Positions 24,477 through 29,893 of a DNA stretch of 64,000 bases are shown one piece after another. How positions within the stretch are numbered: the stretch's first letter is position 1; each line of letters starts with the position of its first letter. The translations under genes and the position numbers were made by a program. This DNA comes from Natronorubrum halalkaliphilum (GTDB lineage: Archaea; Halobacteriota; Halobacteria; Halobacteriales; Natrialbaceae): assembly GCF_009834785.1 (NCBI RefSeq), contig NZ_WUYX01000027.1, positions 25,403 through 89,402 of the forward strand, read 5' to 3'. Under the pieces are notes generated by a model, which ran no database searches, had not been told where the DNA came from, and was given only the letters and a program-made list of their open reading frames with translations.

Positions 24477-24674
24477 TCAGTCGTACTTCCGAAAACCCAT
24501 ATCGCGGGCCATCTCCCGAAACGACTGTCGACAGAGCCAGATGTCGTACTTCCCGATCAACCCCTGTTCTCGGCCAGTGTCTCTGCAGACGCGTTCGTTT
24601 CCGGTTCGTCCGTCGTTCGGAATGGCCGTGTCGGTTGTTTCGTCCGCGGAGTCCGTCGATGGGCCACCGGTCAT
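24477..24674 (-). CDS. uS14 ribosomal protein paralogue with incomplete zinc site
   Basis: A 65-residue small-subunit protein uS14. The conserved core [19 protein letters not shown], then [13 protein letters not shown], is unmistakable. Archaeal zinc-type uS14 has CxxC...CxxC; here the positions read VCRDTG and LCRQSF, so the second and fourth cysteines are Thr and Ser and zinc is unlikely to bind normally. The N-terminal 27 residues are an acidic disordered extension. The ATG overlaps the stop of the HEAT-like gene (ATGA), at the end of an operon headed by a G3E GTPase. Zinc-free paralogues of uS14 and other ribosomal proteins are known zinc-sparing replacements in bacteria, and the same logic is inferred here. 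The main rps14 of the spc operon is not in this window. Confidence 0.85.
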
Positions 24675-24928
24675 GCCAACTCTCTTGCCCGCCGTCTCAG
24701 TGACGGTTCGATCGTCGTGTCCTCTGAGAGTTCCTCGAGAACGGTGGTGGCGTTGCAGTCGGCTAACCCGTTGAGTGCGTGCCGACGGAACTCGCCGCGG
24801 AGGCCGCCCATTTGGACGAGAACTCCGAGGTTCGTGGCCTCGCCCGCTCGGGCGAGTGCATCGATCGCTTCGTAGCGTTGAGCTGGTGAAACGTTCTTCT
24901 TGACCGCTGTTTGGAATTTTGTTGACAT
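24671..24928 (-). CDS. HEAT-like repeat small protein
   Basis: An 85-residue all-helical protein resembling one to two HEAT repeats ([20 protein letters not shown], then [20 protein letters not shown], then LRRRARELA). The ATG at 24928 is 11 bp after the DUF7511-like stop, and its own stop overlaps the uS14-paralogue start by four bases, so the pair is translationally coupled. HEAT-type helical hairpins usually mediate protein contact, and coupling suggests it handles or accompanies the uS14 paralogue, for example in assembly. No metal-binding cluster is visible (one Cys only). Confidence 0.65.
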
Positions 24929-24939
24929 TGTTTAATGGG

Positions 24940-25152
24940 TTATCGTGCGTCTTCGAGCGTACAATACGAACCTTCTCGAGCCGAGATCCACGCCGTTACC
25001 AGCGAATCCTCCGATGCGATCGAGTAGATCGTACAGAGATCCGGCTCCGAATCGGTCGGTTCGACGATCGCGAGACACTCCGGGGCCGGCTGCTTGACGG
25101 CCGGCGGTGATCCCGCCTCGGTCACGTCGTCGTTCGAGTCCTGGCGAGTCAA
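24940..25152 (-). CDS. DUF7511-like small haloarchaeal protein
   Basis: A 70-residue protein whose second half ([20 protein letters not shown], then [16 protein letters not shown]) matches my memory of the haloarchaeal DUF7511 family. The first 25 residues are disordered. The only start that fits is TTG at 25152, overlapping the TGA stop of the G3E GTPase gene (TTGA), so translation is probably coupled to it. Three Cys residues occur at about 26, 40 and 64. Function is unknown; its place inside the G3E/uS14 operon suggests a role in the same metal or translation response. Confidence 0.65.
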
Positions 25153-26423
25153 TCTGCGATTCCGATCTCTTCTTGACCGTCGTGTTCGGTTTCTCCTGGC
25201 TCATCCTCTTCGACCTCGTCTAACTCTTCGAACGTCGGGAAGCGGTCGTCGAAGGCCCCCCAGTCGGCGTCCATCTCCTCGTCGGTGAGCAGACAGAGTT
25301 CGAGGTGATTTCGGATCGACTCGTGGTCCATCTCGGTTCCGATGACGACCAGTCGCGTTCCGCGATCACCCCACTCGTCGTCCCAGGCCTCCTCGAGTTC
25401 CGGATAGGCCTCGAACTGCTCCTTGCGTTCCTCGGGCGGGAGGGCTGCGATCCAGTTCCCGGCGGGTGCGACACGGATCGACCGCCCGGCAACGTTCAGC
25501 ATGAGGGCCATCTCTTCCCGACCAGCGAGCCAGAAGTGGCCTTTCGATCGGACGACGTTCTCCGGGAACTCGTCGAGCAGTTCGGCAAAGCGCTCCGGGT
25601 GGAACGGACGTTTTGCCTTGAACACGAACGATGTGACACCGTGTTCTTCTTCGGCCGATTCGTGGGGCTCCTGAAGTTCTTGCATCCAGCCGGCCGATCG
25701 GCTCGCGTCCTCGAAATCGAACCGACCGGTGTCGATGATGTCGTCAGGATCGATCCGGCCGTGCGTCGTCCGAACGATCTCGGCTCGCGGTTGTAGCGTC
25801 TCGAGCGTCGCTTCGATCTCGGCGAGCGTCGCCTCGTCGACGAGGTCACACTTGTTCAACAGGAGAACGTCGCAGAACTCCACCTGGTCGACGAGTAGAT
25901 CACCGAGGTGTTTCTTCGTCCCGTCGTCGTCGAGAATCTCGTCCGACTGCATCGCCTCGTTGAACTGGTGAGCGTCGACGACCGTCACGGTCGTATCGAG
26001 ATGACAGCCCTCGAGTGGCTCGATGCCCGTCTCCTCGTAGAACTCGGTGGGATCGAGATCCGATTGGTCGAACCCGAGCGTGAGCGTCTGTGCGACGGGG
26101 AGCGGTTCGGCGACGCCCGTCGACTCGACGACAATTGCGTCGAACTTCCGATCTTGGGTGAGTCCGCCAATTGCATCGAGCAGATCACCGCGCAGTTCAC
26201 AGCAGATACAGCCGTTCGAGAGTTCGACCAGCTCCTCCTCGTCCGCAGAAATGTCGGACGATTCGGCGACGAGGTCCGCGTCGACGTTCACCTCGCCCAT
26301 ATCGTTGACGAGCACGGCGAGATCTCGATCGCCGCTTTCGCGCAGCAGATGGTTGAGTGTGGTTGTCTTCCCGGCACCGAGCGTCCCGGAAAGTACCGTC
26401 ACGGGGATCGTCTTCTCTTCCAT
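25149..26423 (-). CDS. G3E family GTPase, CobW/COG0523 metallochaperone type
   Basis: A 424-residue GTPase of the CobW/ZNG1 subfamily. Walker A is GTLGAGKTT (~14-22), the metal-binding CxCC motif is NGCICCELRGD (~69-79), the guanine-specificity motif is LLLNKCDLVDE, and a CobW C-terminal domain runs from ~255 to ~375 (FVFKAKRPFHPERFAELLDE). The last 40 residues are very acidic. COG0523 proteins deliver Zn or Co to client proteins, and many are induced by zinc shortage. It heads a tight four-gene operon ending with a zinc-site-deficient uS14 paralogue, which favours a zinc-limitation role. A promoter-like AT element lies 24-40 nt upstream of ATG 26423. Confidence 0.9.
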   Translation of the reverse strand: MEEKTIPVTVLSGTLGAGKTTTLNHLLRESGDRDLAVLVNDMGEVNVDADLVAESSDISADEEELVELSNGCICCELRGDLLDAIGGLTQDRKFDAIVVESTGVAEPLPVAQTLTLGFDQSDLDPTEFYEETGIEPLEGCHLDTTVTVVDAHQFNEAMQSDEILDDDGTKKHLGDLLVDQVEFCDVLLLNKCDLVDEATLAEIEATLETLQPRAEIVRTTHGRIDPDDIIDTGRFDFEDASRSAGWMQELQEPHESAEEEHGVTSFVFKAKRPFHPERFAELLDEFPENVVRSKGHFWLAGREEMALMLNVAGRSIRVAPAGNWIAALPPEERKEQFEAYPELEEAWDDEWGDRGTRLVVIGTEMDHESIRNHLELCLLTDEEMDADWGAFDDRFPTFEELDEVEEDEPGETEHDGQEEIGIAD

Positions 26424-26525
26424 GTGTTACCAACCTGGCCTCCCTAGGTAATATAGGTTATTATCTACCCCAAAGTTTTTATTAACTCTCGGCGTCGTCT
26501 TCGAACACTGGCAGGATGGTTTCCG
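26424..26525. promoter_or_regulatory. divergent promoter region with repeated and palindromic AT elements
   Basis: It serves the G3E operon (minus) and the first flavoprotein (plus). TAATA-taggt-TATTA (26449-26463) is an inverted repeat that also forms a direct repeat TAGGTAATA/TAGGTTATTA. It coincides with the expected TATA position, about 29 nt before the GTPase ATG. CAAAGTTTTTATT at 26471-26483 differs by one base from a stretch in front of the P-loop gene (29925-29937). These are candidate operators for a shared metal-responsive repressor; the regulator is not identified. Confidence 0.55.
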
Positions 26526-27794
26526 ATGACGACACACGATTCAACCCAACAATTCGGCTGTACTATCATTGGCGGCGGAATCCACGGCACGTACCTGGCT
26601 CAGCGTCTGTTCGAAGATGCTTCGTTCGATAAATCTGACGTTTGTATCCTCGATCCGCACGACCGATTGCTGGCATCGTTTCGTGAGAAGGCCAGGGCCT
26701 GCGGTATGGAGGCGCTCCGATCCACGTTCGTTCACCATGTTGGAACCGAACCGTTCGGACTCGAGAGTTTCGCCGAAGCGAACGGTCGCGAGGACGAACT
26801 CGTTCCGACGGTGGATTATCCCGATCGGCCCTCTCTCGATCTCTTTCTGGACCATTCGGCGTACGTAATCGACCGGAAGGATCTCGAATCCCTGCATCGC
26901 CGGGCCGCTGTCGACGCCATTCACGAACTCCCCAACGAGACAGGGTTTCGGCTCGAGACGACAGCTGGACCCGTCGATACCGACCACTGCGTTCTGGCGA
27001 TCGGTCACGGCGGTCGCTACCGACGGCCGGACTGGGCACGCGATCTCGACGGCGTCGAGCACGTCTGGGGCGGCTTCGATCCCGACGCGTCGGTCGATCG
27101 AACCATCGTTGTCGGCGGCGGCATTACGGCCGCACAACTCGCGTGTGAGTTGAGCGAAACGCAGTCGGTGGGCCTGCTCTCACGGCATCCGTTCGAGTGG
27201 GAGGTGTCCGAGGCGGATCCGCCGTGGATCAACTGGTCGCACGTCGAAGACACCCTCCACAGCTATCCATCGGGGTCGAGCGAGCGATTCGAGACGATTT
27301 CGGAGGCCAGAAACACCGCGACAATTCCGCCGTACCTCTATCCCGAACTCGAGGATCGGATCGACGAAGGCACAGTCACGCTCGCACAGGGAGCGGTCGA
27401 GTCGGCGACGAACGAAGACGGATCGGTCCAACTCTCTCTGGAGCACGGGTTACAATTACTCGGCGACCGGGTCGTCCTCGCGACGGGATTCGAACCGGTG
27501 TTCGACCATCCGTTTGTCGATCGAATCGTGGAGGAACTCGAACTGACCCGCGGCTATCGAGGGATGCCCGTTCTCGATGACGACACGCTCGCTTGGCAGC
27601 GCGACGACGGCCGGTTCGTTCCGCTGTATGTGTCCGGGGCTCTCGCCCTCGAGACGGTCGGCCCGTACGCGCCCAACATTCCGGGTGCCAGACGAGCCGG
27701 TGACCGGATTACGGCCGCCATCACGCAACGCCGTCGTCGTATCAAGGCCGACGGGACGGAGGAATCCGTGTCCGGAACGGGTGCGTCCGATTGA
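26526..27794 (+). CDS. FAD/NAD(P)-binding oxidoreductase, paralogue 1
   Basis: A 422-residue flavoprotein with two dinucleotide-binding Rossmann motifs: TIIGGGIHGTYLAQRL (~13-28) for FAD, and IVVGGGITAAQLACEL (~196-211) for NAD(P). A late VLATGFEPVFDHPF is the typical ATG-type third motif. The layout resembles SidA/IucD N-hydroxylases and related flavin monooxygenases, but no siderophore genes are nearby. A paralogue (27834-29087) converges on it from the right. Both share CGM...R...VHH and GREDEL blocks. The promoter is shared with the G3E GTPase, which suggests a role in metal-limitation metabolism, possibly making or modifying a metal ligand. The substrate is unknown. Confidence 0.78.
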   Translation: MTTHDSTQQFGCTIIGGGIHGTYLAQRLFEDASFDKSDVCILDPHDRLLASFREKARACGMEALRSTFVHHVGTEPFGLESFAEANGREDELVPTVDYPDRPSLDLFLDHSAYVIDRKDLESLHRRAAVDAIHELPNETGFRLETTAGPVDTDHCVLAIGHGGRYRRPDWARDLDGVEHVWGGFDPDASVDRTIVVGGGITAAQLACELSETQSVGLLSRHPFEWEVSEADPPWINWSHVEDTLHSYPSGSSERFETISEARNTATIPPYLYPELEDRIDEGTVTLAQGAVESATNEDGSVQLSLEHGLQLLGDRVVLATGFEPVFDHPFVDRIVEELELTRGYRGMPVLDDDTLAWQRDDGRFVPLYVSGALALETVGPYAPNIPGARRAGDRITAAITQRRRRIKADGTEESVSGTGASD

Positions 27795-27833: not shown

Positions 27834-29087
27834 TCACGGTTTCGGTTCAGATGTTGCGGCTCCGAGTTCGGCCTCGAGGGACCTGACGATGAGCGTTCCC
27901 GCTCTCCTGGCTCCGATTACGTTTCGGGCGAACGGCCCGAGGACCTGCTGTGCGGCGACGCCAGAAACCGCGATGCGCGAGAGCGTTCCATCCCGACGCA
28001 GCCACCGGAGGGTATCGTCGTCCAGAACCGGTGCCCCACGATAGCCGGTCTGCAGGGTCGAGTGCTGGTGGAGTTGGCGAAACAGGGCTCCGCCGTAGGG
28101 TGACCCGAAGCCGGTCGCACAGACGAGTTTGTCGAGACAGAACGCGCTCCCGTCGCGACAGGTGACGACGACCGTGCCGCCAGCTTCGGTCGCGACCGTG
28201 ATCTCCGATCGTTCGAGGTCAACGTGGCCGTTCTCGAGCGCCCGCTGTAATCGGCGAAACACGTACGGTGGCATGGTGCCATCGTATCGGGCTTCGGCCA
28301 CCAGTTCCTCACGAGCACGCGACGCCGGCGGGTGTGCGTGGAGCGTTTCGATGGCCCCTCCGAAATGCATCCAATCGGTACTCGCCTCGAGTGTCTCCAC
28401 GCGAAACGGACTTCTGGCAAACAGCATCACGTCCCGCCCCGGTAGTTGGCCGAGGGTCGTGGCCAGTTGGGCGGCGGTGATGGCTCCGCCAACGATGCCA
28501 ACGGACGATGTCTCGCCGATTGCGTCGGGGTCGAACCCCGGTTCCCAGACGTGAGTTACCGGCTCCGTCGAGACCAGTTCGATCGCCCACGTCGGATACG
28601 TAAAAGAGCGGCCGTGACCGACGGCGAGGAGACACCACCGGGTAGAGAGACGATCTTGCGTGGTTTCGATCTCGACGGTGTGTCGACACTCTTTGATTTC
28701 GGTGGCTCGAGCATCCACGTGGGCTGATTCGAGACTGTATCGATCGCAGACCCACTTCGCGTGGTCGAAGAACAGCGACACCGTCGGTCGCGCTGCACCG
28801 ACCGTCGTCGAACGGAGTTCGTCCTCGCGCCCGCGTTCTCGAGCGAAATCCCTGAGCGAGAACGGGTCGGTAGCGACGTGGTGGACAAGCGGCGATCTGA
28901 ACTCGGTCATCCCACACTGACGACACGTTCGGCGAAACGACTCGAGGAGTCCAGCCGGATCGACAATGCGCAACTCACCTAGATCGATCAGCCCACTTTC
29001 AAGCAGGCGAACGGCCAGATGAACGCCGTGGACGCCGCCGCCGACGATCGTAACCAGGGGGTCAGTATCCGTCCCCGTCATCACCAT
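27834..29087 (-). CDS. FAD/NAD(P)-binding oxidoreductase, paralogue 2
   Basis: A 417-residue flavoprotein similar along its whole length to the convergent neighbour: TIVGGGVHGVHLAVRL (~13-28), VGIVGGAITAAQLATTL (~192-208) and VCATGFGSPYGGALF. Shared blocks include CGM...FRSPLVHHV and GREDEL. It follows the P-loop gene by 62 bp on the same strand, so the two probably form an operon. Having two diverged copies beside a metallochaperone suggests two related reactions or a heteromeric enzyme. The activity is not assignable. The start is ATG 29087; a second Met two codons on is possible. Confidence 0.76.
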   Translation of the reverse strand: MVMTGTDTDPLVTIVGGGVHGVHLAVRLLESGLIDLGELRIVDPAGLLESFRRTCRQCGMTEFRSPLVHHVATDPFSLRDFARERGREDELRSTTVGAARPTVSLFFDHAKWVCDRYSLESAHVDARATEIKECRHTVEIETTQDRLSTRWCLLAVGHGRSFTYPTWAIELVSTEPVTHVWEPGFDPDAIGETSSVGIVGGAITAAQLATTLGQLPGRDVMLFARSPFRVETLEASTDWMHFGGAIETLHAHPPASRAREELVAEARYDGTMPPYVFRRLQRALENGHVDLERSEITVATEAGGTVVVTCRDGSAFCLDKLVCATGFGSPYGGALFRQLHQHSTLQTGYRGAPVLDDDTLRWLRRDGTLSRIAVSGVAAQQVLGPFARNVIGARRAGTLIVRSLEAELGAATSEPKP

Positions 29088-29149: not shown

Positions 29150-29893
29150 TCAGGGCAGTTGCCGGCGTGCCAGCACGTGTCCGTCGTGATTGTGGCAATT
29201 ACACTCGAAATAGGCTGCCGTGTAGCCAGCCGCTCCGAACGAATCGATGAGCGAATCCGCCTTCTCTCGGTCCTCGAGTTCGGTGTTGACGATCGACTGG
29301 TTGCCGCGCTCGAGGGCCTCGAGTGCTCGCTTCGGCTCCTGTCGCTCCGACTGGAGCGCTTCGATGAGTATCGCTTCGACGGCCCGCGCTGAAAGCTCGG
29401 GGACGCATCCGTTGCCAATCGCCGTCGAGATACGCTCCTTCTCGTAGAAATACTCCGCGAGGGTCGGTCCGTCGAACGTTCGAAGGCGATCTCTCGCCAA
29501 TTCGTCGAACCGGTTTACAACGAGGAAACACTCGACATCGTGCTGACTAGCGCACCGCTCGTATCTTAAGGCGCTCTCGAGGGTTTCGGGCGTTGTGACG
29601 ACGAACACCGTATCCAGCCGTTCGGCTCGTGCCCCGATTGCTTCCACACCCGGCGGACAGTCTTCGACCGCCCATTCGATCCCGAGTGCGTCGTCGGTAC
29701 TCGCCTCGCGGCTTGGTACCAGCTCCGTCGCCTCTCCGGTAACCTCTACACGTGTTCGCTCTGCTAGTCGAGCCGCGACGAGCGCGGCGACCGTCGTCTT
29801 GCCGACGTTCGGATCGCCGGCGAATGCGATACGACGCGTCACAGACTCGCGCTCGTTTTCATGGCCCCTGCGTTGGGTTAGCTTCGTCGTCAC
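29150..29893 (-). CDS. SIMIBI-type P-loop NTPase with Cys/His-rich C-terminal tail
   Basis: A 247-residue protein if started at GTG 29893; a second GTG 17 codons in (VTRRIAFAGDPNVGKTT) is also credible. Walker A is GDPNVGKT (~26-33), and VVNRFDEL resembles the NKxD base-recognition strand. The fold recalls CooC/MinD/ArsA metallochaperone ATPases, but the loop lacks the deviant second Lys. Near the C-terminus is ECNCHNHDGH (230-239), with two Cys and three His in ten residues, a good candidate metal site. It is followed by flavoprotein paralogue 2. I infer a nucleotide-driven metal-delivery role parallel to the G3E GTPase 3 kb away. Confidence 0.7.
   Translation of the reverse strand: MTTKLTQRRGHENERESVTRRIAFAGDPNVGKTTVAALVAARLAERTRVEVTGEATELVPSREASTDDALGIEWAVEDCPPGVEAIGARAERLDTVFVVTTPETLESALRYERCASQHDVECFLVVNRFDELARDRLRTFDGPTLAEYFYEKERISTAIGNGCVPELSARAVEAILIEALQSERQEPKRALEALERGNQSIVNTELEDREKADSLIDSFGAAGYTAAYFECNCHNHDGHVLARRQLP

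Follow-up and report, generated by a model that had tools for sequence, protein, structure and literature searches.

CooC and HypB are NTPase metallochaperones whose metal sites are separate from the nucleotide yet coupled to it (PMC9164220). CooC carries a deviant Walker A motif, KGGxGK, with a conserved lysine (PMC9164220). Given this separation and coupling, a metal site that has moved elsewhere on such a scaffold is plausible. Among the COG0523 proteins, a subset is tied to zinc homeostasis (PMC2770081). Here we describe a short NTPase gene that lies close to a COG0523 gene in a 64,000-nucleotide stretch of the Natronorubrum halalkaliphilum genome (the window), and that encodes a Cys/His cluster at the end of the protein rather than within it. 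The invariance of this cluster, together with neighbouring genes for zinc or nickel import and delivery, suggests that the NTPase is probably a new metal-delivery helper that acts under metal scarcity.

An NTPase gene at a CobW locus

The gene order in the window is HEAT(-), CobW(-), flavoprotein A(+), flavoprotein B(-), NTPase(-), with the following features.

24671..24928, (-): small HEAT-repeat-like protein; weak Pfam HEAT_2 match, below cut-off
25149..26423, (-): CobW/COG0523 GTPase, ZigA-like, with GCICC motif; Pfam cobW 9e-48
26447..26465, (-): second copy of the 19-bp element, GATAATAACCTATATTACC, in the divergent CobW/flavoprotein A promoter
26526..27794, (+): flavoprotein A, FAD/NAD(P)-binding (NAD_binding_9), divergent from CobW
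27834..29087, (-): flavoprotein B, FAD/NAD(P)-binding (NAD_binding_9), 43% identical to A, directly downstream of the NTPase gene
29150..29893, (-): P-loop NTPase of the SIMIBI type, 247 aa from a GTG start, carrying the Cys/His module at its C-terminus
29150..29326, (-): the C-terminal module, residues 190-247, predicted beta-alpha-beta-beta, with CNCHNHDGH (231-239) in the last hairpin loop
29919..29937, (-): 19-bp dyad-like element, AATAACAACTTTGATTATC, 25 nt upstream of the NTPase start

The window CobW matches the NCBIfam ZigA model at 1.4e-126 (422 bits, under the curated cut-off of 600). No close solved structure was found for flavoproteins A and B. ARAGORN places a tRNA-Gly (TCC) at 27474-27564 (-), antisense within flavoprotein A, which is possibly a false positive.

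The NTPase has the P-loop GDPNVGKTT and ends in ...AYFECNCHNHDGHVLARRQLP. Its GTG start aligns with those of close homologs, which share the AT-rich element ahead of it. Relative to the homolog at locus L057, divergence at codon positions 1, 2 and 3 is 0.23, 0.15 and 0.39. Together with tail residues that remain invariant across 21 sequences whose identity falls to 35%, the faster third-position divergence indicates that this open reading frame is a real gene.

A narrow haloarchaeal family with an invariant tail

No Pfam or NCBIfam model matched the NTPase at cut-off, the best matches spanning the P-loop only, and the literature searched, whose coverage was incomplete, held no description of the family; the protein thus falls within no described non-metal family, an assignment that would have spoken against the metal-related role proposed in the preliminary description. 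A scan of genome contigs with the single sequence gave no match, and a profile scan proved effective. Class-wide, we found matches in 22 of 391 genomes, the weakest three being P-loop or CooC/MinD-like proteins and not members. When 84,980 species genomes were scanned with profiles, full-length relatives were found in haloarchaeal records only, plus one contig that is probably mis-binned. The genera concerned are Natronococcus, Natrarchaeobius, Natrialba, Natronocalculus, Halorubrum, Halorientalis, Halovenus and Halonotius, with several MAGs in addition. Locus L058 (SLLM01000153.1), labelled as an Ectothiorhodospiraceae MAG, carries a haloarchaeal NTPase locus near-identical to L057 and is probably mis-binned. 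A wider distribution was rejected: hits in Chloroflexota and elsewhere cover the P-loop part only, and of the phylum-wide profile hits beyond Halobacteria, the ones inspected proved to be CooC-like ATPases rather than family members. Judged by its sequence, the NTPase is a member of a narrow, unnamed haloarchaeal family.

The gene is also prone to decay. It is broken or truncated in L005, L018, L019, L020 and L021, and in L044 the N-terminus of the NTPase is fused to the C-terminus of HEAT, an arrangement that a deletion explains best. Its rarity in the genomes of the class and its decay in several relatives indicate that the gene is accessory and often lost.

We aligned 21 family members, the window protein included, with identities to the latter down to 35%. 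Ten residues are invariant (21/21): G31, T33, D78, C231, N232, C233, H236, G238, H239 and A242. The Walker A lysine K32 is kept in 19 of the 21 and replaced by Arg in L076 and L077. These two proteins (L076 5867-6604 and L077 8950-9690) are divergent Halococcaceae members that have GxGR at Walker A and keep the full CNCRCH tail. The terminal CxCHxH pattern noted in the preliminary description proved to be the window's own variant, CNCHNHDGH, of a tail that usually reads CNCRCHDGH; the tail itself is present and invariant as a Cys/His cluster, and all intact homologs keep it (21/21 aligned). Four members have another residue at the third Cys of the tail: N (the window), Y (L074), F (L070) and G (L068). 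Because this Cys is not invariant, the minimal invariant set is C-x-C-x-x-H-x-G-H, found as a terminal CNCxxHxGH in 21/21. One of the two patterns used in the 84,980-genome scan was the tail itself; independent whole-protein searches agree with that scan, the tail being kept in every full-length match.

When residues 190-247 were predicted alone (pLDDT 92), the Cys/His stretch sat between the final two strands. The best structural match of this module is the SirA/TusA-like 3hz7 (Z 7.2, 55 residues, 2.1 A), at a level that common arrangements also reach, and Foldseek with the module returned nothing below E 0.001. No free-standing copy of the module occurs among 80 relatives.

Probable descent from CooC-type ATPases

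An AlphaFold2 model of the NTPase built from the 21 sequences (pLDDT 81, pTM 0.81) has CooC1 (3kje) as its top VIA-align match, with Z 14.8 and 3.2 A over 155 residues. MinD, the DPOR/nitrogenase (NifH-like) Fe proteins and ParA follow within about 1 Z, and HypB scores Z 13.2. As all of the top matches are SIMIBI proteins, the predicted fold makes the SIMIBI class secure but not the order inside it; the SIMIBI-like nature first suggested by the P-loop GDPNVGKTT was thereby borne out. EF-Tu, which came first by Foldseek E-value, was set aside, since the DALI-like Z ranking puts CooC1 and MinD first and the sequence profiles concur.

Placement within the SIMIBI class is better settled by sequence profiles than by structural ranking. 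Comparison by hhalign with four CooC-like archaeal ATPases gave 98.4% probability over NTPase residues 18-167. In that alignment the NTPase lacks some 80 residues that the CooC-like proteins have, and with them the GCxC metal motif as well as the aspartates of switch I. The signature lysine at the second position of the deviant Walker A (KGGxGK) is absent in 21/21; the P-loop forms of the family include GDPxVGKT, GPEGxGKT and GERxVGKT. Going beyond the preliminary description, we conclude from these profile alignments that the NTPase is a shortened CooC-type ATPase that lacks both the metal site and the signature lysine of CooC. Membership in the CobW/G3E group was rejected, as there is no Pfam cobW match and no CxCC, and hhalign gave 1.2%, covering the P-loop only. 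L025 8944-9888 (-) encodes a haloarchaeal CooC-like ATPase that has the GCxC motif and whose N-terminal stretch (MCDACGRHGDGNSHDG...) is rich in Cys and His.

Association with metal import and delivery genes

Among 26 loci with an intact NTPase gene, a CobW/ZigA-type gene is found no more than about 10 kb away in 21, an importer of the NikA+NikB type is present in 10, and ZnuA or ZnuB in 7; flank lengths differ, so that these counts are lower bounds. Each of the 26 has at least one CobW, Nik-type or Znu gene, or the flavoprotein. The 4.56-Mb genome of the window organism has four CobW loci, so a gene picked at random would have one within 10 kb in about 2% of cases. NikR-like regulators adjoin the NTPase in some loci, and the NikA match near the NTPase falls well under the NikA cut-off.

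The arrangement varies by lineage: Natrialbaceae have HEAT-CobW/flavoproteins, Halorientalis, Halovenus and others have CobW-HEAT-NTPase-Nik genes, and Halorubrum vacuolatum has Znu genes-NTPase-NikR-CobW-CobW. The association of the NTPase with metal genes is therefore not one inherited block. A CobW-HEAT-NTPase operon is found in L040, L069, L070, L072 and L075, where the HEAT stop and the NTPase start overlap as ATGA, an overlap that looks as in a translationally coupled operon. A homolog of flavoprotein A comes after znuB in L038, L040, L043 and L069. A thioredoxin-reductase-like flavoprotein (L034 10559-11374, L031 8244-9071) regularly follows the NikABCDE-type genes near the NTPase.

The 19-bp element occupies the same position before homologous NTPase genes. 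A pattern written from the NTPase and CobW/flavoprotein A promoter sites matches the 4.56-Mb genome exactly at three places: its two source sites and, as the only match outside them, a site that immediately precedes a decayed CobW copy (contig C6, L151 7018-7400). A first-order Markov simulation of 7.5 Mb gave no match, and exact copies occur in several relatives, where they sit in promoters of the NTPase or of CobW/flavoprotein. When as many as two mismatches are allowed, the genome yields 18 hits versus 15 for a backward control; since this is little better than the control, we claim no weaker sites. The NikR-like proteins are candidate regulators of the element.

Proposed function

The preliminary description had proposed a new nucleotide-dependent metal chaperone, an idea that is supported in part, by the SIMIBI class, the invariant tail and a strong metal-gene context that extends beyond a single flavoprotein. 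We consider it somewhat better than an even call that this haloarchaea-specific, CooC-derived SIMIBI NTPase serves as a metallochaperone in a metal-shortage regulon, with zinc the most likely metal and nickel or cobalt the alternative. What we infer is that the tail binds metal, that the nucleotide gates this site, that the ion is exchanged with CobW or a client, and that the metal is zinc. When metal is scarce, a regulator would release the 19-bp element, and the importers would then carry metal into the cell. The NTPase tail would take up one ion with its two Cys and two His, often with the third Cys as well; the nucleotide state of the P-loop domain would open or close this site; and the partner CobW GTPase or a client enzyme would receive the ion or supply it. 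Turnover of NTP may not be required, since in L076 and L077 the Walker A lysine is substituted by Arg. Counting against a metallochaperone are the missing switch I Asp segment of CooC and the rare, accessory nature of the gene.

Nik-type and Znu-type genes are both present, and the locus could instead be one for nickel or cobalt, with a protein that inserts Ni like CooC or HypB; this account differs from the one above in the metal alone. The NikABCDE-like transporter and NikR-like regulators beside the NTPase favour it, as does CooC1 as the nearest fold. However, ZnuA/ZnuB lie near the NTPase in seven loci, the CobW partners are closest to the ZigA model, the NikA match is far under its cut-off, and no Ni enzyme maturation gene was recognised in a general typing of the neighbours. 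We regard nickel or cobalt insertion as rather unlikely, if the most serious of the alternatives.

A set of two Cys and two His within a hairpin loop is typical structural zinc geometry. The tail might thus merely stabilise the C-terminal module, which is confidently predicted as a small compact domain, in a protein that plays a different part in the metal regulon, such as scaffolding or regulating the importer or CobW, and the dispensability of the third Cys in four members agrees with this. Yet a site that requires zinc would seem counter-productive in a protein apparently made under zinc shortage, and metal genes or the flavoprotein surround the NTPase in every locus; we judge a purely structural site unlikely. 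Less likely still, in our estimation, is a degenerate NTPase that senses metal, and perhaps nucleotide, without NTP turnover and acts as a metal-status switch on CobW or transport. The absence of both the deviant Walker A lysine and the switch I segment would fit such a protein, as would the GxGR of L076 and L077, but G31, T33 and D78 do not vary and 19/21 retain K32, which indicates that selection maintains nucleotide binding in most of the family.

More tentatively than the metallochaperone role itself, we suggest a possible new class of NTPase metallochaperone, for which we put the chance at short of even: a CooC-type protein that would have lost the internal site and the lysine, gained a C-terminal CxCxCHxGH, and come to work in series with CobW/ZigA in haloarchaeal zinc shortage. 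If true, this would add a second kind of NTPase beside COG0523 to zinc-shortage responses, provide a case of a metal site relocated on the CooC scaffold, and offer a testable entry into the control of metal shortage in haloarchaea; the three-site promoter element makes the metal regulon directly testable. To our knowledge, few clients of COG0523 proteins have been identified, and a partner that shares CobW's operon would help to find more.

Comparison with known systems

The NTPase resembles CooC, a P-loop ATPase of the MinD/BioD class that inserts Ni for CO dehydrogenase, in its P-loop, its fold, the D-x-x-x-G segment behind the third strand and the subsequent strands and helices. Unlike CooC, it has neither the signature lysine nor the internal GCxC motif, and it carries the extra C-terminal Cys/His module. 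No cooS (CO dehydrogenase) gene was recognised in the general typing of neighbour genes. Like COG0523/CobW proteins such as ZigA, it is a SIMIBI metal-linked NTPase of putative zinc regulons, with CobW as its genomic partner, but it lacks the CobW domain, the CxCC motif and CobW_C. With the G3E GTPases HypB and UreG it shares the fold and the proposed nucleotide-gated delivery of metal; in contrast to them, it has no N-terminal Cys/His site, and NKxD is replaced by NRFxE or TRF/THF. Its C-terminal module differs from TusA/SirA in the absence of the CPxP motif. By the motifs that define those proteins, the NTPase is not a CooC, a CobW or a HypB, but it probably works like one.
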